36,672 nucleotides of DNA, from positions 1 through 36,672 of IMG/VR virus record IMGVR_UViG_3300005663_000023; one strand, 5' to 3'. Under the pieces are notes generated by a model. The model searched no databases and had not been told where the DNA came from. It saw only the letters and a program-made list of their open reading frames with translations. The translations under genes and the position numbers were made by a program. This stretch comes from a virus. Positions 1 through 33,573 of this stretch are shown in pieces; the stretch's first letter is position 1; every line of letters starts with the position of its first letter.

Positions 1-77
1 GACCTTAGATTGCTGGGCCGGTCGAGTCGCTGTCACGACTCCCGGCCCTCTGCCGTTTATACCACGTCGCGTCGAAC
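1..77. repeat. 77-bp terminal direct repeat (contig circularity)
   Basis: Positions 1-77 are identical to 36596-36672. An exact short overlap of this size is what an assembler leaves when it closes a circular or circularly permuted molecule, so this is probably one locus counted twice and not a true terminal repeat. The locus is copy A of the promoter-hairpin leader, pointing to the minus strand: stem bases 15-21 pair with 42-48, and 24-29 pair with 36-41. The -10-like TATAAA lies at 56-61 on the minus strand. Confidence 0.9.
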
Positions 78-257
78 CTGCGCCAGCAAGCCGAGCGCTC
101 TCCTGTACCTGTCCTCGTCCGGCTCGCCGCCGATGATCACCATCGCGACCGGCTCGTCGATGGTCGCGGCGATCTCTTGGAAGGTCGCGCATCGGAAGTC
201 GATCCCGGGCGGTGGTCCGGGCGGTGTGGGTAGGTCGAAGAGCATAGGGTGCGTCAT
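57..257 (-). CDS. Small hypothetical protein (66 aa)
   Basis: I do not recognise this protein. It starts MTHPMLFDLP, is proline-rich at the N terminus (PTPPGPPPG) and then acidic (GGEPDEDRYRRALG). No membrane segment or metal-binding motif is visible. Its ATG overlaps the stop of the upstream minus-strand gene as ATGA, so translation is probably coupled. Its TAA stop lies inside the -10-like element of leader copy A, so the 3' end directly abuts, and may have been trimmed by, that repeated cassette. Confidence 0.7.
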   Translation of the reverse strand: MTHPMLFDLPTPPGPPPGIDFRCATFQEIAATIDEPVAMVIIGGEPDEDRYRRALGLLAQVRRDVV

Positions 258-502
258 GACGACCGCCCTGCGACGTGCAACAGATCGCCGGCCATCATCT
301 CCAAGCTTCGATCGAGCGCTTCGGCGATGGGCACGATGTCTTCGTGTAGCTGCATGCCGAAGCGGGTAGCGCAGAACTTCCGCAGCAGGTAGCGGTCCGC
401 GGCGAGCATGCGCGCGACTCGCTCTGGTACGCGACAGACGAAGCGGGCCCGCGAGCCACCACCCACATTGGGTGTTTGTCTTCTGATTTCGATGTGTTTC
501 AT
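254..502 (-). CDS. Hypothetical protein (82 aa), first gene of its leftward operon
   Basis: The ATG at 502 follows a purine-rich ribosome site (GGGAAGGA) and begins MKHIEIRRQT; a longer reading frame starting at 625 would run through the divergent promoter. The product is basic, with an R-rich centre (RARFVCRVPERVARML) and a weakly helical C terminus. No known family is recognised. It is the first gene after the bidirectional GGTATACC element and overlaps the next gene by ATGA. Its position in the early leftward arm suggests an early-function small protein, but no role can be assigned. Confidence 0.75.
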   Translation of the reverse strand: MKHIEIRRQTPNVGGGSRARFVCRVPERVARMLAADRYLLRKFCATRFGMQLHEDIVPIAEALDRSLEMMAGDLLHVAGRSS

Positions 503-504
503 GG

Positions 505-533
505 TTGTCCTTCCCTCCCCCTCATGGTATACC
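505..533 (+). promoter_or_regulatory. Divergent promoter with palindrome GGTATACC
   Basis: On the plus strand TTGTCC (505-510) is 17 bases from TATACC (528-533), a sigma70-like arrangement feeding the genes at 553 and 663. The octamer GGTATACC (526-533) is a perfect palindrome, so it also offers TATACC as a -10 for the minus-strand gene starting at 502; the -35 in that direction is poor. The same octamer precedes five other genes or operons. It could act as a -10 element, an operator, or both. Confidence 0.65.
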
Positions 534-552
534 TTGCTCGTCAGGAGAGCAA

Positions 553-666
553 ATGAACAGAACAACAGTTTTCGTTGCAATACTCGCTTTCGTGCTCGGC
601 GCCTACGCCGTGTACAGCGACGCAACCCTCAACTCGTGCAGCTCGTTCGAGAGGTCACGACGATGA
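553..666 (+). CDS. Mini membrane protein (37 aa)
   Basis: This short frame starts at ATG 553 behind AGGAGAGCAA and encodes MNRTTVFVAILAFVLGAYAV followed by a short polar tail. The N-terminal third is a single hydrophobic helix, either a membrane anchor or an uncleaved signal. Its TGA overlaps the ATG of the ERF gene (ATGA), which supports a real, translationally coupled gene. It is the first gene after the divergent promoter at 505-533. The function is unknown; similar one-helix minis occur three more times in the leftward arm. Confidence 0.65.
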   Translation: MNRTTVFVAILAFVLGAYAVYSDATLNSCSSFERSRR

Positions 667-1322
667 GTGTAGGCAAACTTGCCGCAGCCCTTGCGAACAT
701 CGCGGGAGAGTGCGGCGTCATCTTGAAGACCGGTGACAACACCCATCAGCGCTACACGTACGCCTCGGACTCCGACCTCAAGAAGCAACTTCAGCCGCTG
801 TTCGCGAAGTACGGGATCACCATCGTACCGCGCGGCATCGATGCGACATGGGACGAGGCGAAGCAGAAGAACGCCACCGCCGCGCGATGCCGCATGCAGG
901 TGACCTACACCATCGCTCACGAGAGCGGCGAGATGATGCAGGCCGTAGCGTTCGGCGAGGGCATCAACAACGGCGACAAGGCTGCTTACGTCGCACAGAC
1001 TGGCGCGTACAAGTACTTGGTTCGCACCATCTTCGCGGTGCCGACGACCGACGACGCCGAGCAGGCCTCTCCCGCGGTAGTGCCGCAACACGCACCGGCA
1101 GGCGAGGGGCACGATCAGGATTTCTCCGCCGACCAGGGGAGCTTTTTCGCTGCGTTGAACGACGTCGGGTGTGACTACGAAGACGTCAAGGCGTTCGCGC
1201 AGGCGAATGATCAGCCGAAGCCGTCGAGCGCTGGCAACAAGGGACGCCGCCAGCTCGTCGAGTACCTGCGAAGCGAGAAGGGCAAGGCGGACTTCCTCGG
1301 ATTCCTCGAGTCTGCGAGATGA
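663..1322 (+). CDS. erf: ERF-family single-strand annealing recombinase
   Basis: This 219-aa protein matches the ERF family of phage single-strand annealing proteins, which bind single-stranded DNA and promote annealing for recombination or genome circularisation. The ERF core covers roughly residues 5-130: helical ALANIAGECGVILKTGD, then YTYASDSDLKKQLQPLF, the strand TYTIAHESGEMMQAVAFGEG, and the hallmark GDKAAYVAQTGAYKYLVR (about 104-121). A variable acidic linker and a helical C-terminal domain follow. The start at 663 overlaps the upstream mini gene and excludes an unsupported N-terminal extension from 408. The last codons and stop form the sequence TGCGAGATGA, which is duplicated at the far end of the HNH cassette downstream. 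Confidence 0.92.
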   Translation: MSVGKLAAALANIAGECGVILKTGDNTHQRYTYASDSDLKKQLQPLFAKYGITIVPRGIDATWDEAKQKNATAARCRMQVTYTIAHESGEMMQAVAFGEGINNGDKAAYVAQTGAYKYLVRTIFAVPTTDDAEQASPAVVPQHAPAGEGHDQDFSADQGSFFAALNDVGCDYEDVKAFAQANDQPKPSSAGNKGRRQLVEYLRSEKGKADFLGFLESAR

Positions 1323-1329
1323 GCGCGCA

Positions 1330-1394
1330 TGCTACAATGAAAGGGCGGGGAGCACTGGAATGCTCGACCCGCCCACGCACACAGGCTCAGGAGG
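1330..1394 (+). promoter_or_regulatory. Extended -10 promoter and 5' hairpin leader of HNH gene 1
   Basis: TG at 1330-1331 plus TACAAT at 1333-1338 forms a near-consensus extended -10. The predicted transcript start falls at the hairpin base. GGGCGGG (1343-1349) pairs with CCCGCCC (1368-1374), GAGCA (1350-1354) pairs with TGCTC (1361-1365), the loop is CTGGAA, and a GA bulge (1366-1367) separates the two stems. The same architecture, with compensatory base changes, occurs in the three minus-strand leaders. AGGAGG (1389-1394) is the ribosome site, 5 bases before the ATG. Confidence 0.7.
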
Positions 1395-1399
1395 CCCGA

Positions 1400-1918
1400 A
1401 TGCTCGACAACGCTATCACGTTCTCACCTAGGACACCTGCCCTCTTCTGGGCCAAGGTCGACAAGTCCGCAGGAGTAAACGGGTGCTGGCCATGGACGGC
1501 GGCCACATACCACGACGGGTACGGGATGCTCGGGGTCCTGGTCGGCCCGGGGACATGGAGGGCGCAGCGGGCTCATAGGATAAGCTTGCTCGCCAATGGT
1601 CCCATCTCTGATGGGATGCACATCCTTCACTCGTGCGACAGCCCGCCATGCGTGAATCCCGCGCACCTCCGGGAGGGGACGCACCAGGACAATATGGCAG
1701 ACATGGCGGCCAGGGGTCGGTTGCATAGGCCTGCGGGAGAACTCAACGGCAGCGCCAAACTGAAGCAGCGCGAAGTCGAATCCATCAGGTCGGAGTATGC
1801 GGCAGGCGGTATTACACAGCAGGCTCTAGCCGATAAGTACGGTGTCGCTCAGTCCGTTGTCAGTGACGTGGTCAATGGCAAGCGGTGGGCCTGCCTGCTT
1901 GACGGAGGTGCGAGATGA
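1400..1918 (+). CDS. HNH homing-type endonuclease 1
   Basis: This 172-aa protein has the phage HNH endonuclease core LHSCDSPPCVNPAHL (about residues 76-90): His77, Asn86 and His89 fit the catalytic/metal set, and Cys79/Cys84 are typical of this subgroup. Upstream is the aromatic segment NGCWPWTAA with GYG. The C terminus (about 117-165) looks like a helix-turn-helix (KQREVESIRSEYAAGG, then ITQQALADKYGVAQSVVSDV) that would give target specificity. It is clearly paralogous to the HNH gene at 35500-35991. The ATG at 1400 is chosen for its AGGAGG site. The family makes DNA nicks or breaks that drive its own spread. Confidence 0.9.
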   Translation: MLDNAITFSPRTPALFWAKVDKSAGVNGCWPWTAATYHDGYGMLGVLVGPGTWRAQRAHRISLLANGPISDGMHILHSCDSPPCVNPAHLREGTHQDNMADMAARGRLHRPAGELNGSAKLKQREVESIRSEYAAGGITQQALADKYGVAQSVVSDVVNGKRWACLLDGGAR

Positions 1919-2310
1919 AAGCCTCCGACTTCCACCTGAAAGTGCTGGCGATGCCGCAGATGATGCAGCCGGTGATCAGCCGCAGCTACGCCCTGCTCAA
2001 CCTAGAACGTGTGCCTGTGGACCACTGGGGCGTCAGTGGCAGGGGGAACGCAGAGATCGTTATCCAGGAGTTTCACGACGCTGTTGCTGAGCTTCGCGCC
2101 TACCTCGACGCGCTAGACGAGGCGATGACGGCGAGCGTGGGCCCCGCTGTGCTAGAGCGCATCGACAAGTCCGCCGCCGATGCGAAGCACCTAGAGCAGC
2201 GCACGCCGTTCCGCCGGCCGAAGCTGCACCCCGATTTGGCCAGGCGACGCAAAGAGGCGGCGCTGTCTAGGTGCGCAGAGCTCGACGATGAGAGCGAAGA
2301 TGGGGACTGA
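1915..2310 (+). CDS. Hypothetical protein (131 aa)
   Basis: I do not recognise this protein. It begins MKASDFHLKV, has a helical middle (IVIQEFHDAVAELRAYLDAL) and a basic stretch (RRPKLHPDLARRRKEAAL) before an acidic tail, with no membrane segment. Its ATG overlaps the HNH stop as ATGA. If the HNH cassette is an insertion, this gene was originally coupled directly to erf and may be a partner in recombination or early DNA metabolism; that is inference from position only. Confidence 0.75.
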   Translation: MKASDFHLKVLAMPQMMQPVISRSYALLNLERVPVDHWGVSGRGNAEIVIQEFHDAVAELRAYLDALDEAMTASVGPAVLERIDKSAADAKHLEQRTPFRRPKLHPDLARRRKEAALSRCAELDDESEDGD

Positions 2311-2428
2311 ATTCTACCTCATCGACAGCGAGCGCAAGATCGCCGAAAGAAGTCGAGGCGACGGAATCGGCGCAGATAGGCCGCACCGCTCACTTATTTT
2401 GTGCAACATGGCCCCTGTGTATGAATAG
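2288..2428 (+). CDS. Possible small protein (46 aa)
   Basis: An open frame from ATG 2288 (or ATG 2300, 42 aa) reads MGTEFYLIDSERKIAERSRG and continues to TAG at 2426-2428, filling an otherwise empty interval. It overlaps the end of the 1915 gene by 23 bases in another frame. The opening strand plus basic helix looks protein-like, but the ribosome site is weak (GAGCTCGACG or GCGAAG) and there is no homology evidence. Its 3' end overlaps the promoter region of the next gene. Confidence 0.4.
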   Translation: MRAKMGTEFYLIDSERKIAERSRGDGIGADRPHRSLILCNMAPVYE

Positions 2429-2457
2429 CGTGTTACATGTAATACATACAAGGAAGG
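2399..2457 (+). promoter_or_regulatory. Candidate promoter/operator before the 2462 gene
   Basis: TTGTGC (2399-2404) and TATGAA (2420-2425) form a suboptimal -35/-10 pair with a 15-base spacer. Just downstream TTACATGTAA (2433-2442) is a perfect 10-bp palindrome inside a longer imperfect one, a plausible operator, in a locally AT-rich patch. AAGGAAGG (2450-2457) is the ribosome site. The nearby ribbon-helix-helix protein (2848) is a possible ligand, which is speculative. Confidence 0.45.
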
Positions 2458-2461
2458 CAGC

Positions 2462-2851
2462 ATGAACAACGGAACAAACGAAACCGCTCACCTCTGGTCA
2501 GACGCAGACGTGACCGCCAGTCAGTCGGACATCATCGACGCAGCTAACGGAGCGTGGAACAGCGACAACACAAAATTCAAGCGCTTCGAGTCGAGCGATG
2601 TGTCTACATGGCTCGCCCCCTTCTTCATCGACGGCGCACAAGTGGGCTGGCTCCGCAGTGATGCTGCGGTTGTGCGCATGGCGCCTCCGCAGAGCAGCCC
2701 CGGTAGGTTCGGGGATGTCATCCCGACCCACGTGGACGGCTACGGCGTGATTGTGGACGACGCGGATGGGCCGAGCATGACCTTGGCAGAAGCAAAAGAC
2801 GCGCTTGGTACGGACGGCCTCGCGTGGACCGTCGGCGGCCATGTCTCGTGA
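2462..2851 (+). CDS. Hypothetical protein (129 aa)
   Basis: The ATG at 2462 is preceded by AAGGAAGGCAGC. The protein is acidic and rich in Asp, Asn and aromatic residues (WSDADVTASQSDIIDAANGA, then STWLAPFFIDGAQVGWLRSD). There is no signal peptide, membrane helix or metal motif. No family is recognised. It is translationally coupled to the following GTG-start gene by a GTGA overlap and has its own candidate promoter, so it may be an early or regulatory two-gene unit. Confidence 0.75.
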   Translation: MNNGTNETAHLWSDADVTASQSDIIDAANGAWNSDNTKFKRFESSDVSTWLAPFFIDGAQVGWLRSDAAVVRMAPPQSSPGRFGDVIPTHVDGYGVIVDDADGPSMTLAEAKDALGTDGLAWTVGGHVS

Positions 2852-3048
2852 GCCGAGGCGGCAAGCGCGCGGGCGCGGGAAGACCAATCGGGAGCGGCAC
2901 AAAGCCCGCCGAAGAAAAGCGCTCCGTGCGCGTTGTGGTCAACCTGACGCGTCTTGAGGCTGATGGACTTGACGCTACCCGCACGGGCGACGAGGCCCGC
3001 TCGCAGGCAGCTCGCAGGCTTATACTGGCCTCATGTAAAACGCTGTAG
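2848..3048 (+). CDS. Small ribbon-helix-helix-like DNA-binding protein
   Basis: GTG at 2848 overlaps the upstream TGA and gives 66 aa. Residues 3-14 (RGGKRAGAGRPI) resemble the glycine/arginine tails seen on phage DNA-binding proteins. Residues 26-62 fit a ribbon-helix-helix: strand SVRVVVNLT, helix RLEADGLDAT, then helix SQAARRLILAS. Such proteins bind palindromic operators as dimers. A longer frame from 2824 exists but overlaps the upstream gene without a ribosome site. It could autoregulate through the palindrome at 2433-2442. Confidence 0.65.
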   Translation: MSRGGKRAGAGRPIGSGTKPAEEKRSVRVVVNLTRLEADGLDATRTGDEARSQAARRLILASCKTL

Positions 3049-3079
3049 ACGCGGATAGTTCGAGGCGCTCTAATCGCAG

Positions 3080-3865
3080 CTATTCCACGAGGTAGTGCAC
3101 GATCTGGCCTCGCCCACCCTGGAATGCCACCATGATGGCGTCGGGGTTGATGCCCGTCTCGAGTTCTGTGTAGAACTGCTTTACGCCGGATTTCGGACCC
3201 GTGAGCTGCTCGAACGAGACGTTCGTTGTGTCGTTCTTGAGCTGAATCCACGTGACCCCGGCCATTCCCTCGGCAACCGTAAACCAGCTGTCCCCATTCT
3301 TGGACACGCTGGCCCCACCAGCAGTGGACGCCGCCGTGTACTCGATGATCCGAGCCCTTGAGAGATCATCGTGGCGACTGATGACCACGCCATTATCACC
3401 AGCGACGTTGTAGAATCCGATCTGGAAGCTCGCCGCGACGGTGTTGGTCGTGTTGTAGGACGAGGACACGACGCCGATCGTGATTGTGTATGGCGCCGTC
3501 GGAGCTGCCTTGTAGAACAGGGTCCTCGTCGTGGTTGGGTCGACATCAAGCACGCCGCCAATGATCGATAGGTTGGGCGTCCCGGCCACTGTCGTCCAGC
3601 TCGCATCAGGCGGAGTGACGAAACCAGCGCCGGGCAAGAGGTCATTGAACGTAGAGCCATCGTGAATTCGGATCAGCCCGGGACCATCTGTCGCGTAGCA
3701 GGTGTCGCCAGCAATGGCCCCAACACACGACGCATACGCAGCTCGCGTGGGCGTGACACCGCCGCTTGCCGTAGGGCTGAAGAAGTCAGCGGTATAGGCG
3801 CCGGAAGGCGCGAGAACGAAGAGGGCGATGAGCACGCCGAGCACGAGCGAGCGGAGCTGATTCAT
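3080..3865 (-). CDS. Secreted appendage-like protein on the opposite strand (261 aa)
   Basis: Residues 1-26 form a Sec signal peptide: MNQLR, then a hydrophobic core (SLVLGVLIALFVLAPSG), then AYTAD with likely cleavage around AYTA-D. The mature part has the tail-fibre-like segment CYATDGPGLIRIHDGSTFND (about 56-75), then a beta-rich C-terminal domain resembling a jelly-roll or carbohydrate-binding fold. The gene alone runs leftward inside the rightward arm, converges on the 2848 gene and diverges from the 3912 gene. Upstream CATAGCGTAC may be a -10, and TAGGTGTACG (3877-3886) is a degenerate relative of the GGTATACC motif. This is moron-like: a secreted or surface-acting protein. Function unknown. 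Confidence 0.75.
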   Translation of the reverse strand: MNQLRSLVLGVLIALFVLAPSGAYTADFFSPTASGGVTPTRAAYASCVGAIAGDTCYATDGPGLIRIHDGSTFNDLLPGAGFVTPPDASWTTVAGTPNLSIIGGVLDVDPTTTRTLFYKAAPTAPYTITIGVVSSSYNTTNTVAASFQIGFYNVAGDNGVVISRHDDLSRARIIEYTAASTAGGASVSKNGDSWFTVAEGMAGVTWIQLKNDTTNVSFEQLTGPKSGVKQFYTELETGINPDAIMVAFQGGRGQIVHYLVE

Positions 3866-3911
3866 TGGGGAACCCCTAGGTGTACGCTATGGTAGCCCAC
3901 AAGGGGGGCGA

Positions 3912-4304
3912 ATGAAGACACCGACATGCGCGCATGCGTCGAGGGAAGAGCCGTGCTGGGGCAAGGTCTTGCCGACCGCTCTGGGTCTAGGTGCCGACAC
4001 CTGCGCGGGCCACTACTACGTCGAGGCGACGGGCGGGCGGTACGTGGCGCAGGGTGAGCGGCACGCGTTCGAGAAGCGGATTGCGGCGATGCGGGCACCG
4101 GTTGAGTGTGGGGGGCCGTGGTACCCCCAGCCACCACGCACTGACCCGTATGGCCCCATGCTGTGCGAGCAGCATGGGGAATCCTGCCCAGAGGCAGAGA
4201 ACATGCGGCACCGAGTGGAAGATCACTACACTCCTGGCGAGTGGGAGGCCTTCCTGCGCTGCGACGCTGATCTAGCGACCCTCGCCGACCTGACGGAGGA
4301 CTGA
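3912..4304 (+). CDS. Cysteine/histidine-rich hypothetical protein (130 aa)
   Basis: The start is ATG 3912 behind AAGGGGGGCG. The protein has N-terminal CAHASREEPCWGK, then CAGHYYVEATGG, and later MLCEQHGESCPEAENMRHR, so several Cys/His pairs could bind a metal, but spacing matches no family I know. There is no signal or membrane helix. It directly precedes the small terminase gene by two bases and probably shares its transcript. Confidence 0.7.
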   Translation: MKTPTCAHASREEPCWGKVLPTALGLGADTCAGHYYVEATGGRYVAQGERHAFEKRIAAMRAPVECGGPWYPQPPRTDPYGPMLCEQHGESCPEAENMRHRVEDHYTPGEWEAFLRCDADLATLADLTED

Positions 4305-4306
4305 CC

Positions 4307-4720
4307 TTGCCTGCCAAGCCGCTAGCTCGCAGGCACTGGCCGAAGCTGATCGTTCTGCGGCTGCACGGACAGACCACGCGCCAGATCGGACGGGAGCTCG
4401 ACAAAGCGCACTCGTCGGTCGCAGCGACGCTACACCACCCCGAGGTCAAGGAAGCGATCGAGAGCGGCCTTGACGCGCTCGAGCCCGTGTTGCGTGGAGC
4501 GATGCGTGCGGCGCGCGGCGAGGCCTTTGAGGTGCTGATGGAGCTGCTCGGGTGCACGGACAACCGCGTGCGCCTCATGGCGGCGACAGCCATCCTCGAC
4601 CGCACCGGCATCACCGCGGGGCACACGATCAAGATCGAGGCGTCGGTTGACTTCGACCCGGACAAGGTGGAGGAGGAGCTCGCGCAGCTCGCAGCGAAGG
4701 CGGCGCAGGGCGCGGAGTAG
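4307..4720 (+). CDS. terS: Terminase small subunit (probable)
   Basis: This 137-aa protein has an N-terminal helix-turn-helix, KLIVLRLHGQTTRQIGREL followed by HSSVAATLHHPEV (about residues 13-46), typical of small terminases that recognise the packaging site. A helical middle (LEPVLRGAMRAARGEAFEVL) may mediate ring oligomerisation, and the region RVRLMAATAILDRTGIT is common in this family. The acidic helical C terminus would contact the large subunit. The start is TTG, with GGAGG ending 8 bases upstream. The large subunit lies 0.7 kb downstream. Assignment rests on fold pattern and position. Confidence 0.8.
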   Translation: MPAKPLARRHWPKLIVLRLHGQTTRQIGRELDKAHSSVAATLHHPEVKEAIESGLDALEPVLRGAMRAARGEAFEVLMELLGCTDNRVRLMAATAILDRTGITAGHTIKIEASVDFDPDKVEEELAQLAAKAAQGAE

Positions 4721-4749
4721 TTGACCCTCGTTGGTGCTTGGGGTATACC
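4721..4749 (+). promoter_or_regulatory. GGTATACC-type promoter before the 4768 gene
   Basis: TTGACC (4721-4726) and TATACC (4744-4749) are separated by exactly 17 bases; the octamer GGTATACC is at 4742-4749. Transcription would begin around 4756, between the octamer and the GGAGGGAAG ribosome site. It lies just past the small terminase stop and would drive the large terminase group. Confidence 0.65.
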
Positions 4750-4767
4750 TAGGTGTCTGGAGGGAAG

Positions 4768-5220
4768 ATGGCGATCGATGTAGAGGCGGTGTGTGCGGAG
4801 TGGAGGCGGCTGGGGGGCACGATCGATCGATCTGGAAAGTCGCCTATTCTTAACGGCGATGCCGAGGACGACGGCTACGACAAGGCCGCAGCATGGGTCC
4901 GCCAGGAGGGTATCAGTGCTTACTTTTCACGCGAAATCGGAACAGACCCGATCGACCTGGACGACACATCGCGTCTCCCCGAGCTCGCCCGCGTATGGGG
5001 CCTGACGCCCGCAGAGCCCGAGGTGCTGACATGGGAGCAGGCGGCGGCGTTGTGGGTGGAGTGGGGTGGGGCTGTTGTGAGGGTGTCCCTCACCCTCGGC
5101 ACCCTCGAGGACATGGCCGAAGCGTGCGGGCTGCCGAGGACGCCGGGGGCGCGATGGGCGGCCGCCGAGCAGCACGCCCGCTACAAAGCAGCGCTTGACG
5201 CGTTCTGTGGGGTGGGGTGA
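4768..5220 (+). CDS. Hypothetical protein (150 aa)
   Basis: ATG 4768 is preferred over GTG 4753 because GGAGGGAAG lies just before it and the GTG nearly abuts the -10. The protein starts MAIDVEAVCAEWRRLGG and has a second helical segment near the C terminus (TWEQAAALWVEWGGAVVRVS, then LEDMAEACGLP). There is no membrane helix or catalytic motif. It overlaps the next ATG by TGATG. Located between the terminase genes, it may be an accessory of packaging; otherwise unknown. Confidence 0.75.
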   Translation: MAIDVEAVCAEWRRLGGTIDRSGKSPILNGDAEDDGYDKAAAWVRQEGISAYFSREIGTDPIDLDDTSRLPELARVWGLTPAEPEVLTWEQAAALWVEWGGAVVRVSLTLGTLEDMAEACGLPRTPGARWAAAEQHARYKAALDAFCGVG

Positions 5221-5483
5221 TGCGTGTCTTCCCAGCGTGGGACTGCCGAGAGTGCCGAGCCTACGCAGTGGGCAAGACCAGCGACGCTGAGCCACCCACC
5301 GGATGGAAGCGCTCATGGAGAGGCTACGGAGGATGGGTGTGGGTCTGTCCTGACTGTCACCCGTATCCATGGAGGGTCAAGCCGTGCCCTCTGTGCGATG
5401 ACACTGGCCGGGTGCTTACTGGCCACTTGCGCCCTGGGGTAGATCCGTGCCCGTGCAAGGCCCCGCCACGGCGCTCAGAGTGA
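5220..5483 (+). CDS. Zinc-ribbon-like small protein (87 aa)
   Basis: Four cysteine pairs are visible: C9/C12 (CREC), C43/C46 (CPDC), C56/C59 (CPLC) and C77/C79 (CPC), the second and third being classic zinc knuckles. The CPLCDDTGRV segment resembles the Cys-rich repeats of DnaJ-type zinc fingers. Trp-rich stretches lie between (GWKRSWRGYGGWVWVC). Start ATG 5220 overlaps the upstream stop; GTG 5217 is an alternative. The gene overlaps the large terminase start by 37 bases. A nucleic-acid or protein-binding accessory is likely, but not proven. Confidence 0.75.
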   Translation: MRVFPAWDCRECRAYAVGKTSDAEPPTGWKRSWRGYGGWVWVCPDCHPYPWRVKPCPLCDDTGRVLTGHLRPGVDPCPCKAPPRRSE

Positions 5484-6967
5484 CCCTCTCTCTCGCCGAG
5501 AAGAAGCGCGCCGCCCAGCTCATGGCGCAGCTCGAGCGCCACAAGCAGACGAACCCGCTCGCGCACGCCGACCTCTGGGACAACCCCGCGCCGCAGACGT
5601 CGCAGCGCAGGTGCGTCGAGGTGCTCGGGCAGCAGGTGAGCAGCGAGGGGTTCAGGCCCGGACTGCCTGACGTCGTCTGCATCCTCGGCGGCAACGGTAG
5701 CGGCAAGAGCGAGGTCCTCTTGCAGACCGCGGTGGCTGTCGCGCTCGGCCGGCACCACAAAGATGCGGTCAGGTGGGCCAAGCGCAACGGGTTCCCGCTC
5801 GACCGGCTGCCAGAGGGTCAGGGACGCGTCATCATCTCGAGCTTGACGCACGTGGACAGTCGGAAGATCGTGAGGCCGAAGGCTGACCGCTACGCCCCAC
5901 CGCGGTCGAAGTGGCGGCAGCGATGGGCCGACAATGAGGCAGAACTCCGCATGCCGGGCTCCGATGGCGTGACGGGGATCATCGTCTTCAAAGCGAATCG
6001 ACAGGGGCGCGAGGCCTTCCAGGGCGATTGGGCCCATATGTACGGCTACGACGAGGAGCACAGCGAGGACGTTTGGAAGGAGACGCAGCACCGCCACAGC
6101 CGGCCAGAGTGCGAGGGTATCGGCTTCCACATGCTGTCGATGACCCCGCTCAAGGGCGTCACGTGGGTGGCTCGCAAGTTCCTCCCGGAGCACGCACTCA
6201 CCAAAGACGACGGGCCCGGCGAGCTCCGCGTGTCGGTGCACTGGCTGCACACCGCGGACAGCCCGCACGCGACCGAAGACAACCTCCGTGCGCTGCGCAG
6301 CTACGGCACGCACGAGCGGGAGGCCAGATCGAAGGGCGCTATCGTCGCGCTCGAGGGTCGCGTTTTCGAAGAGTTCCAGCGTCACACCCACGTCGTGCCC
6401 TCGTTCCTCCCGCCGCCGCACTGGGTACGCATGCAGTGGATCGATTGGGGCACTGCGAACCCTGCCGCGCTGTACCACGCAGCGATCGACCCGAAGGACC
6501 GCGTCATCCACGTGTATCGGGAGCGGTACCTGGCACAGCACACGCCGAAGCAACACGCCGAGGCGACGATCGACGTAGAGGCGACAGAGCGCGGGCGCCT
6601 CAAGGCCAAGTACCCGCAGGCGAAGATCCCCGACGAACTCGTGCCGTACCGCGTGGCCGACCCCGAGGACCTCGGCGCACGGCAGACGTGGGCCATGCAC
6701 CACGGGCTTGTGACCATCCCGGCAGACAAGGCTGTGCGTGAGGGCATCAACGACGTGAAGGATGTGCTGCGCCTCGACGCGATGGGGCGACCGCACCTCG
6801 TGGTGCATGACTGTTGCGTGCACATGATCAGCGAGTTCGGGCAGTACGTGTGGCAAGAGAAGAACAGCGCGACGCGGGATGATCCTGACATGCCGCGGAA
6901 GAAGAACGATCACGCGATGGACGCGGTAAGATACGGCGTGCGTCGGGCGAAGCAGCTTGGGCTGTGA
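5447..6967 (+). CDS. terL: Terminase large subunit
   Basis: This 506-aa protein is the packaging ATPase and nuclease that pumps DNA into the prohead. Walker A is GGNGSGKS (81-88), Walker B is MYGYDEE (198-204) and the coupling segment is SMTP (about 231-234). The C-terminal RNase H-like nuclease begins at WIDWG (331-335, Asp333), has further acidic residues around 405-408, and ends with KKNDHAMDAVRYG (485-497, Asp488/Asp492). The start is GTG 5447 behind GGGGTAG. Length and order of motifs are normal for the family. Confidence 0.95.
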   Translation: MPVQGPATALRVTLSLAEKKRAAQLMAQLERHKQTNPLAHADLWDNPAPQTSQRRCVEVLGQQVSSEGFRPGLPDVVCILGGNGSGKSEVLLQTAVAVALGRHHKDAVRWAKRNGFPLDRLPEGQGRVIISSLTHVDSRKIVRPKADRYAPPRSKWRQRWADNEAELRMPGSDGVTGIIVFKANRQGREAFQGDWAHMYGYDEEHSEDVWKETQHRHSRPECEGIGFHMLSMTPLKGVTWVARKFLPEHALTKDDGPGELRVSVHWLHTADSPHATEDNLRALRSYGTHEREARSKGAIVALEGRVFEEFQRHTHVVPSFLPPPHWVRMQWIDWGTANPAALYHAAIDPKDRVIHVYRERYLAQHTPKQHAEATIDVEATERGRLKAKYPQAKIPDELVPYRVADPEDLGARQTWAMHHGLVTIPADKAVREGINDVKDVLRLDAMGRPHLVVHDCCVHMISEFGQYVWQEKNSATRDDPDMPRKKNDHAMDAVRYGVRRAKQLGL

Positions 6968-6976
6968 GGGGGAACG

Positions 6977-7192
6977 GTGGCTGACAGGACAGACCAAAAC
7001 CCATACGCGTGTGGCGACGGTGCCTGCGTGCTTCTTGTGCCAGGTGCCCCGGTGGGGATGCACACCAACGGAGGGTGCCGTTGCATTGTCGCCATCATGC
7101 ACCCGAGTACTCGGGTCAGGCTGCGCCAGGGCATCCTATGGCTGGCTGTGCAGGTTGGGGATTCACTCAAGGAGGACGCATGCGAGGAATGA
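6977..7192 (+). CDS. Small conserved phage protein with TNGGCRC motif (71 aa)
   Basis: The GTG start at 6977 follows GGGGGAACG. The sequence NPYACGDGACVLLVPGAP followed by GMHTNGGCRC is a pattern I recognise from small uncharacterised proteins in other tailed phages. Cys residues C12, C17, C34 and C36 suggest metal binding or a disulphide-linked fold. No function is established. It lies between terminase and portal and overlaps the next gene by 13 bases. Confidence 0.7.
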   Translation: MADRTDQNPYACGDGACVLLVPGAPVGMHTNGGCRCIVAIMHPSTRVRLRQGILWLAVQVGDSLKEDACEE

Positions 7193-7506
7193 TCAAGGTC
7201 GTGCAGAAGTGGTCACGCACCATCGACGGCACCACCCGCACCCGCGGACGCGTGTCGTTCCCGGAACACGGGGTGGTGGTGCATGTGATCGAGGATGGGC
7301 ACCTGGTGCACCTGCATTGCAAGCGGGGCATTCGGGAGCACAAGGAGACGATCGACCTCGAGGGCCTCGACGCCGACAAGGCTGGCGAACTCGTCGTGAA
7401 GCACGCGGAGGAGGCTGTGCGTGACCTGCTGACGCGTCCGCGTCAGCAGATGTCGGCTGTGGTTGCGCTGGGCGTTGACGACGTGACGCCGATCACGAGG
7501 GGGTGA
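7180..7506 (+). CDS. Hypothetical protein (108 aa)
   Basis: The start ATG 7180 sits behind a strong AAGGAGG site; an apparent longer frame from 7009 is discarded. The protein is beta-rich at the N terminus (TRTRGRVSFPEHGVVVHVIE, then HLVHLHCKRG) and helical at the C terminus (DADKAGELVVKHAEEAVRDL). No family is recognised. It overlaps the 6977 gene, so the two are probably coupled, and it ends about 70 bases before the portal gene. Confidence 0.75.
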   Translation: MRGMIKVVQKWSRTIDGTTRTRGRVSFPEHGVVVHVIEDGHLVHLHCKRGIREHKETIDLEGLDADKAGELVVKHAEEAVRDLLTRPRQQMSAVVALGVDDVTPITRG

Positions 7507-7562
7507 GAGCGGCGGGGCGGGGTGTGCGACGAGCTCTGACACGCGCGGGCTTTCGCCTGCCG

Positions 7563-7571
7563 TGCTAACGT
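7563..7571 (+). promoter_or_regulatory. Extended -10 (TGCTAACGT) immediately upstream of portal
   Basis: TGC plus TAACGT (7566-7571) matches the TGCTANNNT pattern also seen before HNH gene 1, the 36315 gene and the 23828 gene. Only six bases separate it from ATG 7578 and no Shine-Dalgarno site is present, so the transcript is predicted to be leaderless. A weak hairpin (GCGGGC with GCCTGC, about 7546-7561) precedes it. Confidence 0.5.
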
Positions 7572-7577
7572 CACGAC

Positions 7578-9788
7578 ATGCCCGACCGATCACCGTCTCT
7601 ATGGTTGCGCGTCGCTCGCGCGCTGCGCCTCGTCTCGGAGCCCGAGGAAGCGACCTTCGTTGCGGGGGCCGACTTCATCGAGGGCGTCACTGCGGCGTCG
7701 AGCTTCCCCGTCAAGAACAGCATGAGCGCCGTTGCGGCGTTCCCCTGGATCCAGGCGTGCGTGCGCGCGAAGTTCGAAGACGTGAGCAAGCTGCCAGTGA
7801 AGATGCTTGGGGGCGATGGGCAGCCGCTCGAGTCGCACCCGTGGCTCGACCTCGTTGCGCAGCCTGCGAGCCGCACCAACTGGCTCCCGTACATCCGTCA
7901 GCTCATCCTGGACCTCGAGCTCACCGGCAACTATGCCGCGCTCGTCGCCGGCGCTGGCAGTGGCTCCGAGAGCCTGCTCCGACTGCACCCCGAGAAAGTC
8001 GAGCCGATGCCCACAACGAACGGGCAGATCGACTTCTTCTGCTACGACAGCGATGCGCGGTACGAATGGGAAGACGTGCTCCACATCGCGGACCCGTCGT
8101 GGGAGAGCGACATCAGGACGCTCATCGGTGAGGGCAAGATCCGCGCGCTGACCCGAGGCCTTGAGAGCGAGCTCGCCGCGGAGAAGATGGCCGCGAACGC
8201 TGCGGCACGCGGGCGGGTGGAGTTCATTGTGAGCCCCGCGACGGCTGGCCCCGCGTCCTTGGGGATCATGACACCGGAGGTCATCAAAAAGCTACGGGAG
8301 AAGTGGCGGCAGGTCTGGAATCAGGGTTTCGGCGTGCTGTTCTCTGGCTGGGGCCTTGAGATCACGCCCATCAGCATGACGCCCCGCGACGTCGAATTCA
8401 TTGCGAACTCCGAACGCCTGCGCAAGCAGATCTTCGCACTGTTCAGCGTGCCGCCCGCTCGCCTGGGCCTCGAGACCGCGAACTACGCGACCGCACAGCA
8501 GCAGATGAAAGCCTACTGGGAAGCGCTCGAAGGCCGACTGGCGCTCATTGCAGACGCGTTCACGGTCGTCGCACGCCGCATCGGCACCGACAAGGGCGTC
8601 AAGGTCTTCTTCGACCTGTCGGGAGTCGACGCGTTGCAGGAGTCCCGCACCGCGAGGCTCGATCGTGTAGGCGCCATCGTGAGGCTCGGCCTGCCACTGA
8701 CAGCGGCCTTGCGGTCAGAGGGCTTTGTGGGCCTACAGGCGGCAGCGGCGGACCTGGTCGACCTGGCCGACACCACGCAGGCCTTGAACGGCGCTCAGGT
8801 CCAGGCCGCCGTGCAGATTGTGCAGCTCGTTCCTCTCGGCCTGCTCACGCGTGCGATGGCTAAGGCCATGCTGATCCAGTTCTTCCGGTTGTCGGATGAG
8901 GCCGCAGAGGCGATCCTTGCCGACGTCGAGAGCATCTCGGCGCCGGATGAGCCCGTGGCCCTTGCCGAGCCAGCCGAGCGACAACTCAAGTCCGGCGTGG
9001 GTCGAGCCATCGCGTGGCAGCAGTTCATCGCGCGGACACACAACCCCGTTGAGGCCCGACTACGCCGCGCGATCAAGGCGTTCCTGCGAGCAGCCGCGAA
9101 CAGATACGCCGCGCGCGCTCGCGCCGTTCTTGGCGAACTGCGGCGCGGCAACCCGTCGACCATCACGCGTCAGGGACTCACCGACGAGGCGCTCGCGCAG
9201 ATCCTCGATGAGTCCGGAGAAGTCCGGCGGCTGATCGAGACCATGGAACCCGAGCACCGGGCGGCCATCCGCAAGGCGTTCGGCGATACACTCGGTCTTG
9301 TCGATGTGTCGTTGCCATGGGACGCATCGCTATCGGCTCACGAGCAGCTCGCCCGCACTCTGGCTGCGCAGATGACGCCGCTCAACGAGTCAGCGGTGCG
9401 CATCGTCGTGCAACGTGGTCTTGACGCAGGCGACAGCATCGCAGCGATCGCACAGTCTATCACCGACTCAACAGCGTTCAGCCCACAGCGCGCGTTCCGT
9501 GTCGCACGCACAGAGGCCACTAGGTCGGTGTCAGCCGGCACTGACCAGGCCTATACGCAGATCGAAGCCGATCCAGAGCTCGACATAGAGATCCGGAAGC
9601 AGTGGCTATCGGCGCGCGATGGCTCCGTGCGCGACACCCACCGTGGACTGGACGGTCAAGAGGTGCCCGCGGGCGCTGTATTCACGACGTCGAAGGGCGA
9701 CACTGCCACGTCACCGGGTCACTTCGGTGTAGCCTCGGAAGACATCAATTGCCGATGTACCACGATCCCCATCGTCGTCGGCGGCTAG
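7578..9788 (+). CDS. Portal protein fused to MuF-like head morphogenesis domain
   Basis: This 736-aa protein combines two head proteins that many phages encode separately. Residues about 20-430 match HK97-type portals: AVAAFPWIQACVRAKFEDVS, NYAALVAGAG, and the wing/stem segment SERLRKQIFALFSVPPARLG. Residues about 470-736 match MuF/SPP1 gp7-type minor head proteins: FRVARTEATRSVSAGTDQAY (about 638-657), KQWLSARDGSVRDTHRGLDG and the terminal DINCRCTTIPIV. The portal forms the dodecameric DNA entry ring; the MuF part is usually internal and can be co-injected. There is no frameshift at the joint, so it is a real fusion. No ribosome site is visible; see the promoter at 7563. Confidence 0.92.
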   Translation: MPDRSPSLWLRVARALRLVSEPEEATFVAGADFIEGVTAASSFPVKNSMSAVAAFPWIQACVRAKFEDVSKLPVKMLGGDGQPLESHPWLDLVAQPASRTNWLPYIRQLILDLELTGNYAALVAGAGSGSESLLRLHPEKVEPMPTTNGQIDFFCYDSDARYEWEDVLHIADPSWESDIRTLIGEGKIRALTRGLESELAAEKMAANAAARGRVEFIVSPATAGPASLGIMTPEVIKKLREKWRQVWNQGFGVLFSGWGLEITPISMTPRDVEFIANSERLRKQIFALFSVPPARLGLETANYATAQQQMKAYWEALEGRLALIADAFTVVARRIGTDKGVKVFFDLSGVDALQESRTARLDRVGAIVRLGLPLTAALRSEGFVGLQAAAADLVDLADTTQALNGAQVQAAVQIVQLVPLGLLTRAMAKAMLIQFFRLSDEAAEAILADVESISAPDEPVALAEPAERQLKSGVGRAIAWQQFIARTHNPVEARLRRAIKAFLRAAANRYAARARAVLGELRRGNPSTITRQGLTDEALAQILDESGEVRRLIETMEPEHRAAIRKAFGDTLGLVDVSLPWDASLSAHEQLARTLAAQMTPLNESAVRIVVQRGLDAGDSIAAIAQSITDSTAFSPQRAFRVARTEATRSVSAGTDQAYTQIEADPELDIEIRKQWLSARDGSVRDTHRGLDGQEVPAGAVFTTSKGDTATSPGHFGVASEDINCRCTTIPIVVGG

Positions 9789-9796
9789 GAGTTCAC

Positions 9797-10573
9797 ATGA
9801 AGACCCACCGATGCGTAGCGCGCGCCCTCTTCACCAAGCAGCAGGAGGACGGGTCACACCTCACGACGTTCATTGGCAGCACCGCGGCTGTGGATAGGGC
9901 CGACGATATCGTGGATCAGAAGTCGTGGAAGCTCGCCGAATTCAGGGCTAACCCCGTCATTTTGCAGGGGCACAACCCTGGGAAACCGGTTGTGGGCAAG
10001 GCTGTGAATGTCGAGGTTCGCGAGCACGACGGGCAAGAGTCGCTGATGTTCGACGTGAAGTTTGACGACCACGAAGACAATCCTGACGGGCAGCGCATCG
10101 CCCGCCAGGTGCGCGAGGGGTTCTTGTCCGCTGTCTCCGTTGGCTTCCGATCCGATGACGTTGTGTCGCGTCGCTCGCTTCACGACGACGACGAGCGCAA
10201 GGGTGAGCATGGGGTGCTCTTCCGCGAGAACACGCTATTCGAGCTCTCCGTGGTCGCGATCCCGATGAACCAGGAGGCCCTCGCGGTATCGCGCGGCCTG
10301 AAGAACGCCGAGCAGGCTGCCGACGATGCCCGGGTCAAGGCCTCGCTCATCCGGCTCATCGAGTCTGGCGATCCGGATGTTGCGCGCGCCGTGGAAGCTG
10401 TGCGGCTCGCTGCACCGGCCATCGATACAGACGACGCGCTGCCGTGGATGCAGGACGTCGACCTCGGTCAGCGCGTGCGCGACGCGCAAGCGAAGGCCGA
10501 CAAGGCTCTGACGTGGTTGCAAGACGATGACGACACCGACACCGACACCGACGGCGTTCCCTGGCTCAACTAG
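9797..10573 (+). CDS. HK97-family prohead protease
   Basis: This 258-aa serine protease (family S78) matures the capsid by cleaving the delta/scaffold part of the capsid protein. Family segments visible are TTFIGSTAAVDRADDIVD, VILQGHNPGKPVVGKA with probable catalytic His59, FLSAVSVGFR with probable nucleophile Ser114, and LFELSVVAIPMNQEA with the conserved Glu149. The C-terminal third is helical, then ends in an Asp-Thr repeat (DTDTDTD) encoded by three GACACC units. Start ATG 9797 is chosen because the protease homology begins there; the frame before it lies inside the portal gene. Confidence 0.92.
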   Translation: MKTHRCVARALFTKQQEDGSHLTTFIGSTAAVDRADDIVDQKSWKLAEFRANPVILQGHNPGKPVVGKAVNVEVREHDGQESLMFDVKFDDHEDNPDGQRIARQVREGFLSAVSVGFRSDDVVSRRSLHDDDERKGEHGVLFRENTLFELSVVAIPMNQEALAVSRGLKNAEQAADDARVKASLIRLIESGDPDVARAVEAVRLAAPAIDTDDALPWMQDVDLGQRVRDAQAKADKALTWLQDDDDTDTDTDGVPWLN

Positions 10574-10637
10574 GTTCCCCGAGATGCGTAGCCGCGGGCC
10601 TGCGTTTCTTTCCCTCCCCAAGTCCGCACCCCTGAGT

Positions 10638-10664
10638 CCCTCGATCCCGTTGTGGGATCGGGGG
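10638..10664 (+). terminator. Strong hairpin upstream of the capsid promoter
   Basis: CGATCCC (10642-10648) pairs with GGGATCG (10654-10660) around the loop GTTGT, extended by a further CCC/GGG after one mismatch. It is not followed by a T-run, so it is either a Rho-dependent or weak terminator or an insulator. It sits between the protease gene and the consensus-like promoter of the major capsid gene. Confidence 0.55.
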
Positions 10665-10672
10665 CCTCTACG

Positions 10673-10701
10673 TTGACAACGACCGCGTAGACGGGTAGCG
10701 T
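10673..10701 (+). promoter_or_regulatory. Sigma70-like promoter of the major capsid gene
   Basis: A consensus -35, TTGACA (10673-10678), and TAGCGT (10696-10701) are spaced by exactly 17 bases. The predicted start (about 10708) leaves a short leader containing AAAGGA before ATG 10727. This is the best -35 in the window and fits the need for abundant capsid protein. Confidence 0.7.
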
Positions 10702-10726
10702 TCACGCGGGGAACAAAGGATTCATC

Positions 10727-12259
10727 ATGCCTTACGACGACATTCCGGTTGACCTGTCTACCGCCAAGGCGGCCACGGAGACCGTCGAGAAGATCACCGC
10801 GACGATCAAGGGCCTGCATGAGAGCGGAGCCACGAAGTCGGAGGTCAATGCTGCCGTCGAGAAGGTCGCGGGCGAATTCAAGGCCTCGCTGAAGACCATC
10901 AACGAGCGTTTCGCGCACGTCAACAAGCCTACCGAGAACTTCGGCGCCGATGTGGAGGTCAGTCGCTACCTGCCGCATGAGGGTGATGAGGTCGAGCTCG
11001 CGACCAGGGGCACCTACGCGAAGAACAGCGAAGGCGCGGTGCAGCTGTACACTCGCCACTTCGCCGACGGAGGCCATGCGCCAGGCCTTCTCGACGACGC
11101 CCCACGCACCGAATGGCAAGCCGAATTGCAGGGCCTCGCATCGAAGCGGTCGCTGGTGCGCTCGTGCCAGAAGGACCCCAGCACCCCCGGACTCGATCGG
11201 CAGATCGCCCGCCACATGCGCGTCGCCCCGCCATCCATTCGCCGCATCTTCGCTGACCAGGCGGGCATCGGCGCCGAGTGGATTGCCGACACCTTCTCGA
11301 GCACGCTCGAGCGCGATGTGTTTGCGCCCCGCCCCATCCCGGCCCTGTTCCGGGAGATCGTGGTCCCGCCTGGCGGACAGTTCCGCATGCCGTACCGCGT
11401 TGGCGGGCTCACTCCGTACATCGGCGCAGCGCCCACCGCAGACGACCCCGCGCAGTTCCGCAAGACGTCGCTGACCACTGACGAGCGCACGACCGACCCC
11501 GTCAAGTTCGTGGTCAACGTTCAGATCGACGAGGACGCGAGCGAGGACAGCCTGATCGCGGTTGAGCCCGAACTCCGGTTCGCCATCTCGCAGGCCTTCG
11601 CGGACTCGCAGGAAGACACCATCCTCAATGGCGACCTCGCGGGAACGCGCGATCTGCTCGCCAACTGGAACCCGCGTAACCGCTGGGATGCTGCGGGCCT
11701 CGGCGTCACCGCCGATCACCGCCGCGCCTACGATGGCCTGCGTGAGGTCGCGCTCGACGCAGCACAGGCGAACAACTCGGCAGACCGGAGCGGCGCCATC
11801 ACCGCCACCGGCCTGCGTGAGGACATCAAGACCCTGACCGCCGCCCACTGGCTCAACGGCCAGACTGGCATCGCCATTCTCCCCACGCCCGAGTACTACC
11901 TTGGCACGATGCTGGGATTTGCAGAGGTCATCACGGTTGACGTGGCCGGCCCCCTCGCCACCTTCCAGACCGGTCAGCTTGCCAGCGCATGGGGCTACCC
12001 GATCCATGTGTCCGAGTTCATGACCGCGGACCTCAACGCCTCGGGCGTGTTCGACAACGTGACGACCAACCTCGGAGGCATGATCATCGTCTCGACCAGC
12101 CGGTTCCGCCGGTTCCGTCGCCGGGGACAGCGCATCCGCCTCCAGACCGACATCACGCGCGGCGTGGTGAACATGGTCGCTGACGGCCGCTGGGACTTCA
12201 AGAAGATCAGCCCGCTGACCGAGACGAACGTCCGCTACGCCTTCAACCTCCCGACCTAG
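10727..12259 (+). CDS. Major capsid protein, HK97 fold with N-terminal delta domain
   Basis: This 510-aa protein forms the icosahedral shell. Residues about 10-70 are a coiled-coil-like scaffold (delta) segment (TAKAATETVEKITATIKGLH, then AAVEKVAGEFKASLKTINER) that the neighbouring protease would remove. Residues about 180-510 match the HK97 capsid fold: GAEWIADTFSSTLERDVF, SQAFADSQEDTILNG (E-loop/spine region), ILPTPEYYLGTM, and near the end VSTSRFRRFRRRGQRIRLQT and RWDFKKISP. Its own promoter (10673) and a flanking UUCG hairpin suggest high and separately controlled expression. Confidence 0.93.
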   Translation: MPYDDIPVDLSTAKAATETVEKITATIKGLHESGATKSEVNAAVEKVAGEFKASLKTINERFAHVNKPTENFGADVEVSRYLPHEGDEVELATRGTYAKNSEGAVQLYTRHFADGGHAPGLLDDAPRTEWQAELQGLASKRSLVRSCQKDPSTPGLDRQIARHMRVAPPSIRRIFADQAGIGAEWIADTFSSTLERDVFAPRPIPALFREIVVPPGGQFRMPYRVGGLTPYIGAAPTADDPAQFRKTSLTTDERTTDPVKFVVNVQIDEDASEDSLIAVEPELRFAISQAFADSQEDTILNGDLAGTRDLLANWNPRNRWDAAGLGVTADHRRAYDGLREVALDAAQANNSADRSGAITATGLREDIKTLTAAHWLNGQTGIAILPTPEYYLGTMLGFAEVITVDVAGPLATFQTGQLASAWGYPIHVSEFMTADLNASGVFDNVTTNLGGMIIVSTSRFRRFRRRGQRIRLQTDITRGVVNMVADGRWDFKKISPLTETNVRYAFNLPT

Positions 12260-12265
12260 TGACGG

Positions 12266-12281
12266 CGGGCCTTCGGGCCCG
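12266..12281 (+). terminator. UUCG-tetraloop hairpin after the capsid gene
   Basis: CGGGCC (12266-12271), loop TTCG, and GGCCCG (12276-12281) make a very stable cUUCGg hairpin just after the capsid stop codon. It is followed by a moderately T-rich stretch (TTCTATCTT), so partial termination or 3'-end protection of the capsid message is likely. Downstream genes have no obvious separate promoter, so readthrough must occur. Confidence 0.65.
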
Positions 12282-12310
12282 TAGCCGCCCGCTTCTATCT
12301 TGGAGTTCTC

Positions 12311-12694
12311 ATGCCCTCCCCAGTTTTCACCGTCGTGGAGTGCCCTTTTACCGAGGCCGCTGGCGTCGACGAGGTCAAGAGCCGAGTCGTCACCGTGCCC
12401 GGTACGCACCGCGTGGTCAAGGTCTTCGTCGTAGACAATGACGGCATTACACTCGACGCTTCGGACTTCACCGTCCTATCCGTCGAGACCGCTGCCGCAG
12501 TCGAGATCGCCACTTTCAGCACGGTCGCTACCACGCTGGTCGCCAAGACTCCGGTTGACGTGGCGCTCACTGGCACCCCGATCGCACTGGAGTTCGATCA
12601 GGGAGACTCGATCGTGTTTCTGAAGACCGACACCGGCGCCACGGGCGTCGCAGTCGAGGGCTCGATCGCCGTGCTGCTCGAGCAGGTGCGATAG
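12311..12694 (+). CDS. Putative capsid-associated (decoration-type) protein
   Basis: This 127-aa beta-rich protein (MPSPVFTVVECPFTEAAGV, then HRVVKVFVVDNDGITL) lacks signal or membrane segments. Alternating Val/Thr strands are typical of small virion components, and the position directly after the capsid gene is where head decoration or cement proteins often lie. No sequence family is recognised, so the role is inferred from position. Start ATG 12311 has TTGGAG upstream. It could equally be an internal head protein. Confidence 0.7.
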   Translation: MPSPVFTVVECPFTEAAGVDEVKSRVVTVPGTHRVVKVFVVDNDGITLDASDFTVLSVETAAAVEIATFSTVATTLVAKTPVDVALTGTPIALEFDQGDSIVFLKTDTGATGVAVEGSIAVLLEQVR

Positions 12695-12695
12695 C

Positions 12696-12923
12696 ATGCC
12701 GAATCCGTCAACTGTGCTCGTTGTGAACACCATGGACCGCACCTACAGGGGTCGGCACTGTGGTAACGAGTGCGACGACGGGATCGACCCAGGCGAAACG
12801 GCTGAGGTCTCCGAAGAGGCCGCGGCCTACCTCGTTGCAACCCACGGCTTCGCTCGCGTCGTGAAGCCGACCCCCAAGAAGCGAACGCGCCAGCGCTCGA
12901 CCCGGGGCGCATCCCCGGAGTAG
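12696..12923 (+). CDS. Small virion-region protein (75 aa)
   Basis: The segment DPGETAEVSEEAAAYLVATH resembles the GE-V-(S/P)E-A-A-L-V pattern found in small proteins encoded between the capsid and head-tail connector genes of many phages. The first half has a Cys pair (HCGNECDDG) and the C terminus is a basic tail (TPKKRTRQRSTRG). It starts one base after the upstream stop. Function unknown; a head-tail interface or head-fibre role is possible. Confidence 0.7.
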   Translation: MPNPSTVLVVNTMDRTYRGRHCGNECDDGIDPGETAEVSEEAAAYLVATHGFARVVKPTPKKRTRQRSTRGASPE

Positions 12924-12926
12924 CCT

Positions 12927-15409: not shown

Positions 15410-15418
15410 GAGTACACC

Positions 15419-16414: not shown

Positions 16415-16427
16415 GCGCCACGGGCGC
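16415..16427 (+). terminator. Short hairpin after the tail tube gene
   Basis: GCGCC (16415-16419) and GGCGC (16423-16427) with loop ACG lie directly after the tail tube stop. No T-run follows. It may protect the abundant tail tube message or reduce expression of the downstream chaperone; it is too short to be a strong terminator by itself. Confidence 0.4.
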
Positions 16428-16444
16428 GACCTTGGGAGGGGTTT

Positions 16445-19411: not shown

Positions 19412-19419
19412 GGTAGAAG

Positions 19420-28088: not shown

Positions 28089-28108
28089 CCTGTCCTCCTG
28101 ACACCTTA

Positions 28109-28137
28109 GGTATACCACATCAACGCGGACGCGGACA
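28109..28137 (-). promoter_or_regulatory. GGTATACC promoter of the 28088-26130 operon
   Basis: On the minus strand TATACC (plus 28109-28114) is 17 bases from a poor -35 (TGTCCG, plus 28132-28137). The octamer is followed by TA, a short spacer and AGGAGGACAGG before the ATG, the same arrangement as at 33545. It overlaps the 3' end of the upstream operon's last gene. Confidence 0.6.
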
Positions 28138-30332: not shown

Positions 30333-30352
30333 ACTCACCTCCTGACTACTTA

Positions 30353-30381
30353 GGTATACCAAGAGTGAGGCAGGGTGTCTA
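30353..30381 (-). promoter_or_regulatory. GGTATACC promoter of the 30332-28120 operon
   Basis: On the minus strand TAGACA (plus 30376-30381) and TATACC (plus 30353-30358) are spaced by 17 bases. It lies between the Rho-independent terminator of the upstream RHH gene and the first ATG, and is followed by TAAGTAGTCAGGAGG, similar to the other members of the promoter family. Confidence 0.7.
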
Positions 30382-30390
30382 CTCACCAAC

Positions 30391-30420
30391 GAAAAAACCC
30401 GCGGAGGGAGTCCGCGGGTC
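30391..30420 (-). terminator. Rho-independent terminator (minus strand)
   Basis: On the minus strand ACCCGCGGA pairs with TCCGCGGGT around a 5-base loop (stem plus 30397-30405 with 30411-30419), directly followed by TTTTTT (plus 30392-30397 as A's). It is the only classic intrinsic terminator I see. It ends transcription of the RHH gene (30485-30682) and insulates the next promoter. Confidence 0.9.
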
Positions 30421-30484
30421 TTCCCGAATGGCCATGCCGCCGCGCCCCATGCCGTGTCAGGAGAACGAAGCGCGGCGGACGGCG

Positions 30485-30700: not shown

Positions 30701-30708
30701 GGTATACC
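30701..30708 (-). promoter_or_regulatory. GGTATACC element upstream of RHH gene
   Basis: The octamer lies 18 bases before ATG 30682 with AGGAGAACC between. The upstream -35 region is poor (ATCGCA at 17-base spacing), so use may need an activator, or the octamer acts as operator for readthrough from the thyX operon, which ends at 30719. Confidence 0.55.
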
Positions 30709-33524: not shown

Positions 33525-33544
33525 CCTGTCCTCCTGACTCACTA

Positions 33545-33573
33545 GGTATACCAGCCATAACCGAGCGCGTCAA
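33545..33573 (-). promoter_or_regulatory. GGTATACC promoter of the 33524-30719 (thyX) operon
   Basis: On the minus strand TTGACG (plus 33568-33573) and TATACC (plus 33545-33550) are spaced by exactly 17 bases, the best of the leftward family. The -35 overlaps the methylase stop codon (TGA at 33570-33572). It is followed by TAGTGAGTCAGGAGGACAGG before the ATG. Confidence 0.75.

Follow-up and report, generated by a model that had tools for sequence, protein, structure and literature searches.

The cluster O mycobacteriophages carry predicted SigA promoters, some with very short or no leaders, together with a 17-bp dyad repeat (TGTTCGG-NNN-CCGAACA) in more than 30 copies, clear intragenic ones included (PMC4351075). 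The SAS/ESAS of cluster K comprise an asymmetric 13-mer at the ribosome site, 3–7 bp from the start codon (PMC3203893), and the stoperators of cluster A are reported to be asymmetric sites for a monomeric repressor, which are spread through the genome and stop elongation (PMC9283540).

We compared with these systems an octamer, GGTATACC, repeated in the window, that is, the whole stretch of 36,672 nucleotides of the virus record IMGVR_UViG_3300005663_000023. Its surroundings resemble the cluster O SigA early promoters in having a -35 element, a 17-bp spacer and a -10 element, with several such units in the leftward early region (PMC4351075); unlike in cluster O, every putative -10 here is the identical palindrome GGTATACC, with C at -7 and at a fixed distance from a second block, GTCAGGAGG. 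An invariant palindrome repeated within one phage genome also recalls the cluster O dyad, whereas that repeat has no fixed promoter place and is separate from the promoters, and here the dyad itself would be the -10. As in cluster K, a short repeat is tied to the starts of non-structural genes and AGGAG is contained in the unit, although the element here is a palindrome in the -10 position with a -35. We rejected a cluster K SAS, since the six leaders have GTCAGGAG(G) rather than a GGGATAGGAGCCC-like 13-mer and the octamer stands 18–20 nt from the ATG. The likeness to the stoperators lies in many copies of one short site with coordinated control proposed; we discarded this identity as well, the octamer being a perfect palindrome found only at gene starts versus the asymmetric, genome-wide stoperator sites. 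The six units would thus be repeated phage promoters, possibly with a built-in operator.

The window contains exactly six copies of GGTATACC, at the coordinates given in the original prediction and nowhere else; dinucleotide-preserving shuffles yielded a mean of 0.04 copies and at most 1. It is the most frequent noncoding 8-mer in the window, and the six sites account for 6 of the 19 TATA tetramers (3 others are copies of a second, hairpin leader family). All six copies are noncoding, although noncoding DNA makes up only 9.8% of the window by our own gene calls, which combined a codon-usage model with manual additions (0.098^6 ~1e-6), and all six stand 18–20 nt ahead of an ATG. The claim that the octamers lie just before genes is thereby borne out, and the possibility that the octamer is equally common inside genes does not hold (0 of 6 copies in coding DNA). 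The sites and associated features are as follows, with the strand of each octamer given by its downstream gene.

526..533 (+), GGTATACC: putative -10, TGG-TATACC, of the rightward erf operon; -35 TTGTCC at 505-510
540..547 (+), GTCAGGAG: predicted transcript start and Shine-Dalgarno; ATG at 553
4742..4749 (+), GGTATACC: putative -10 upstream of gene 4768-5220; -35 TTGACC at 4721-4726; preceding base G, not T
28109..28116 (-), GGTATACC: putative -10, TGG-TATACC, upstream of gene 27864-28088; 17-bp hexamer TGTCCG, poor
30353..30360 (-), GGTATACC: putative -10, TGG-TATACC, upstream of the 30-aa hydrophobic ORF 30332-30240; -35 TAGACA at 30376-30381
30386..30424 (-), GACCCGCGGA-CUCCC-UCCGCGGGUUUUUU: predicted intrinsic terminator, which would end the upstream unit directly before the 30353 promoter
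30701..30708 (-), GGTATACC: putative -10, TGG-TATACC, upstream of the small basic ORF 30485-30682; weak -35 ATCGCA
33530..33538 (-), GTCAGGAGG: predicted transcript start and Shine-Dalgarno; same block at 30338-30346 and 28094-28102
33545..33552 (-), GGTATACC: putative -10, TGG-TATACC, upstream of gene 33291-33524; -35 TTGACG at 33568-33573

The 526 site is followed by a 37-aa small membrane-type peptide (ATG at 553) and then by an Erf-like annealing protein (663-1322), so that very small hydrophobic ORFs lie behind two sites (37 aa at 526, 30 aa at 30353). The 4742 site is located between a terminase-small-subunit-like gene and the terminase large subunit (5480-6967), and the leftward sites head genes in a region with a ThyX-type thymidylate synthase. 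At 33545, the -35 (33568-33573) overlaps the end of a methyltransferase-like gene (33570-34316).

Read in the direction of the gene, the unit is [-35]-N15-(T)GGTATACC-N5/6-(GTCAGGAGG)-N4-6-ATG. Two of its parts had been missed previously: GTCAGGAG(G) or a variant is conserved 5–6 nt downstream of the octamer, and a T precedes the octamer at five of the six sites, giving TGG-TATACC, an extended -10 (TGn). With the six sites pooled, the hexamers at each distance of 10–25 bp from TATACC were compared with TTGACA. At 17 bp, 24 of 36 positions matched, versus 12 or fewer at every other spacer in this range (exact P 1.8e-8 from the window's own hexamer score distribution; 3e-7 after correction for 16 spacers). 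Individually, four of the six sites have a hexamer resembling TTGACA at this distance, and the four -35 elements originally listed (TTGTCC, TTGACC, TAGACA and TTGACG) are correct; the remaining two are poor (TGTCCG at 28109, ATCGCA at 30701), and the collective peak includes them. The -10 hexamer TATACC matches the sigma70 consensus in TATA, and has CC where the consensus has AT, so that T at -7 is missing. The T at -7 of the sigma70 -10 is normally well conserved. A promoter scan found no canonical promoters with T at -7 in 26000-36672 or 1-5600, which makes the octamer sites the best promoter candidates in these regions.

The original prediction of a promoter family is strongly supported by the -35 enrichment at 17 bp, the TGn, the terminator upstream of one site and the homologous cassette carried by a syntenic relative. 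The terminator (30386..30424) folds at -27.5 kcal/mol (z -4.4) and ends just before the -35 of the 30353 site, as expected where transcription restarts; the terminator scan missed it, probably because the stem runs into the T run. The sequence itself shows the motif with its spacing, position and statistics, the terminator, and the copy in the relative; from these we infer promoter activity and a start site at the six sites. We consider it highly probable that these are sigma70/sigmaA-type promoters for the host housekeeping RNA polymerase, fused to a ribosome site. Such a polymerase would read the TTGAC-like -35, the 17-bp spacer and the extended -10 TGG-TATACC. Placing the end of the -10 at -7 puts the predicted transcript start on the G in the conserved GTCAGGAGG; in four of the six sites this G lies six nt after TATACC, at the place expected for a start. 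The leader would then be near-minimal, about 12–15 nt, with the Shine-Dalgarno almost at the 5' end, and each compact cassette would serve to restart transcription at the head of early operons and ahead of the terminase genes. On this reading, the early transcription units of an uncultivated virus, one without close relatives in the phage collection, are mapped precisely and in a form open to test. The virus presumably infects GC-rich bacteria; the strict cassette pattern described below gave 65 scattered single matches in unrelated phyla of the genome collection, about the chance expectation, so that the cassette pointed to no host.

We then searched for the cassette in other viruses. Bases 1-20000 of the window had no DNA-level match in 50,697 phage records, the TerL had distant matches only in the phage collection (e.g. 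27% identity over 97% of the query), and 8-mer searches of viral_contigs with the TerL and portal proteins yielded no relatives. The strict pattern TTGAC-N16-GGTATACC-N7-11-GGAG occurred in 8 stretches in 2.9 million viral contigs, including a locus (L098; longer locus of the same contig, L172) that has TTGACG-17-TATACC upstream of its terminase genes. Its TerL was the closest to that of the window among the loci compared (34% over 468 aa by tblastn, 37% in pairwise alignment). Eight window proteins were matched in the longer locus, across head and tail genes of conserved order and mostly at 31–43% identity (TerL 34%, portal-type protein 34%, protease 43%, homologue of 10727-12259 37%). To judge from this gene content and order, the contig is a distant, genuine syntenic relative. 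The cassette pattern is blind to protein content and nevertheless led to this relative, indicating that a short promoter cassette works as a search handle, which caught a distant syntenic relative that the protein 8-mer searches had missed.

The 27.1-kb fragment of the relative has a single octamer, and the other TerL relatives examined have none. A loose IMG/VR viral_contigs pattern gave 89 usable contexts of octamer, Shine-Dalgarno and ATG among the matches listed, and these 89 had no -35 enrichment at 17 bp, which indicates that the octamer is not a general -10 and that the peak in the window is specific. A single locus of this set, L098, is the one described above with TTGACG at 17 bp. A thymidylate synthase search returned 39 distant ThyX loci, none with two or more octamers, and the literature, among the titles listed, contained no phage-promoter use of GGTATACC. 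Three further candidates were set aside: L005 as a relative (a single chance match); L150/G045 as the same cassette (ten octamers, many of them paired at a distance of about 16 bp, an arrangement unlike the cassette); and L159/G049, where none of three GGTATACC-GGGAGA..ATG sites fits the strict cassette pattern. The GGTATACC pairs of L150 (IMGVR_UViG_3300037042_003533, 83.7 kb) lie in an inverted repeat, with several repeats near one end.

Other repeats were observed in these loci. The relative (L172/L185/L186, IMGVR_UViG_3300043395_001651) has its own 14-bp palindrome, CGAATTCGAATTCG, which is absent from the window; it occurs 13 times in 27.1 kb, six times exactly and seven times with one mismatch, and many of the copies are intergenic, while some stand just before a Shine-Dalgarno. 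In TerL relatives (L170 8480-8725; also L168, L169 and L173), thirteen GGTATA/TATACC repeats in both orientations, several at 11–12 bp, occupy the region that separates a primase/helicase-like gene from the terminase genes, and in appearance suggest either replication-origin iterons or a packaging site.

The alternative that fares best is that the octamer is primarily an operator, at which a dimeric phage-encoded protein would bind GGTATACC over the -10 and coordinate the six units as a repressor or switch. We rate this at somewhat below an even chance, and it is compatible with, not exclusive of, the promoter reading. The suggestion stems from positions -8/-7, which are invariably CC in place of the consensus AT: the 8-bp dyad is perfect in the relative's copy as well as in the six of the window, the non-consensus CC included. 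Moreover, other extended -10 candidates in the window, TGGTATAAA twice and TGCTACACT, are without CC ahead of hairpin leaders; if those are promoters, a promoter here can do without CC. One octamer also immediately precedes the small basic ORF 30485-30682, for which autoregulation is conceivable. On the other side, the sequence around the octamer contains no second conserved box and no conserved extension of the dyad, and neither protein originally named as a regulator gave a convincing match. The protein of 30485-30682, claimed to be RHH, had no PHROG match, only a sub-threshold, unrelated Pfam match and no convincing PDB relative, and its single-sequence AF2 fold was of low confidence (pLDDT 57) and uninformative; that of 27287, claimed to be wHTH, had no HTH match in the domain search. 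The small basic ORFs 2848-3048 (+) and 30485-30682 (-) show an RHH-like pattern by eye, with no relevant Pfam match for either, and the protein of 29639-30025 has sub-threshold MarR/IclR wHTH matches.

No copy of the octamer departs from the perfect palindrome, and each has C at -7, a position at which sigma70 favours T; both features suggest, more speculatively, that a dimeric phage regulator may bind the octamer and thereby block the -10. We tentatively propose, as the less probable side of the matter, that the -10 may be the complete 8-bp operator of a dimeric phage regulator, which would compete directly with sigma for the -10 and block or time all six units, the ribosome site being joined to it in a mobile, near-leaderless cassette. 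Should the palindrome prove to be an operator, a phage could control several promoters through a single switch with great economy.

The original prediction further held that the palindromic -10 at 526 could serve both strands, and a true bidirectional promoter also serving the leftward gene 254-502 would have the palindrome in its favour, as well as a divergent ORF that begins 24 bp away within a 50-bp gap. On the reverse strand, however, the 17-bp hexamer is ATTTGC (1/6), the best match is 3/6 at 15–16 bp, and TGn is absent; by the palindrome argument, every palindromic -10 would count as bidirectional, and the other five sites have no convincing reverse-strand promoter either. With neither a -35 at 17 bp nor a TGn in reverse, this proposal is left with the palindrome and the divergent gene, and we consider it unlikely, though leftward use of the site is possible.

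A start-associated translation element around the ribosome site, like the cluster K SAS and in place of a promoter, would accommodate the fixed distance of the octamer to the Shine-Dalgarno and ATG and the extended GTCAGGAGG block; it leaves unexplained the sharp -35 peak at 17 bp, a terminator precedes one site, and we regard it as improbable. A search of Rfam gave no match. A recently duplicated leader with an unconstrained octamer, as the three leftward copies (79–91% alike over 34 nt) might suggest, is disfavoured and very improbable: all six octamers are identical (pairwise identity 1.00) and the distant relative retains the element, whereas identity among the spacers (0.30) and among the upstream parts (0.28) does not rise above chance, which points to selection rather than recent copying.

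Apart from the promoter cassettes, the window has a second leader family on the minus strand (35988-36078, 36312-36402 and 36579-36669, the last continuing at 1-77), ahead of three small or HNH genes. Its members have, in order, the extended -10 (TGGTATAAA in two, TGCTACACT in one), a 13-bp hairpin with a conserved stem and a variable loop, and GGTC-nnnGGA-GACC around the Shine-Dalgarno, and they fold at -32 to -35 kcal/mol (z -3.8 to -5.1); the 19-nt core had no exact match in viral_contigs. The contig ends (1-77 and 36596-36672) are identical over 77 bp, a repeat that is also part of this family, and the contig is therefore probably a complete, circularly closed assembly. Tandem-like GGCGATTCGCTGGCGG repeats were also observed at 35139-35287, within ORF 34301-35545.
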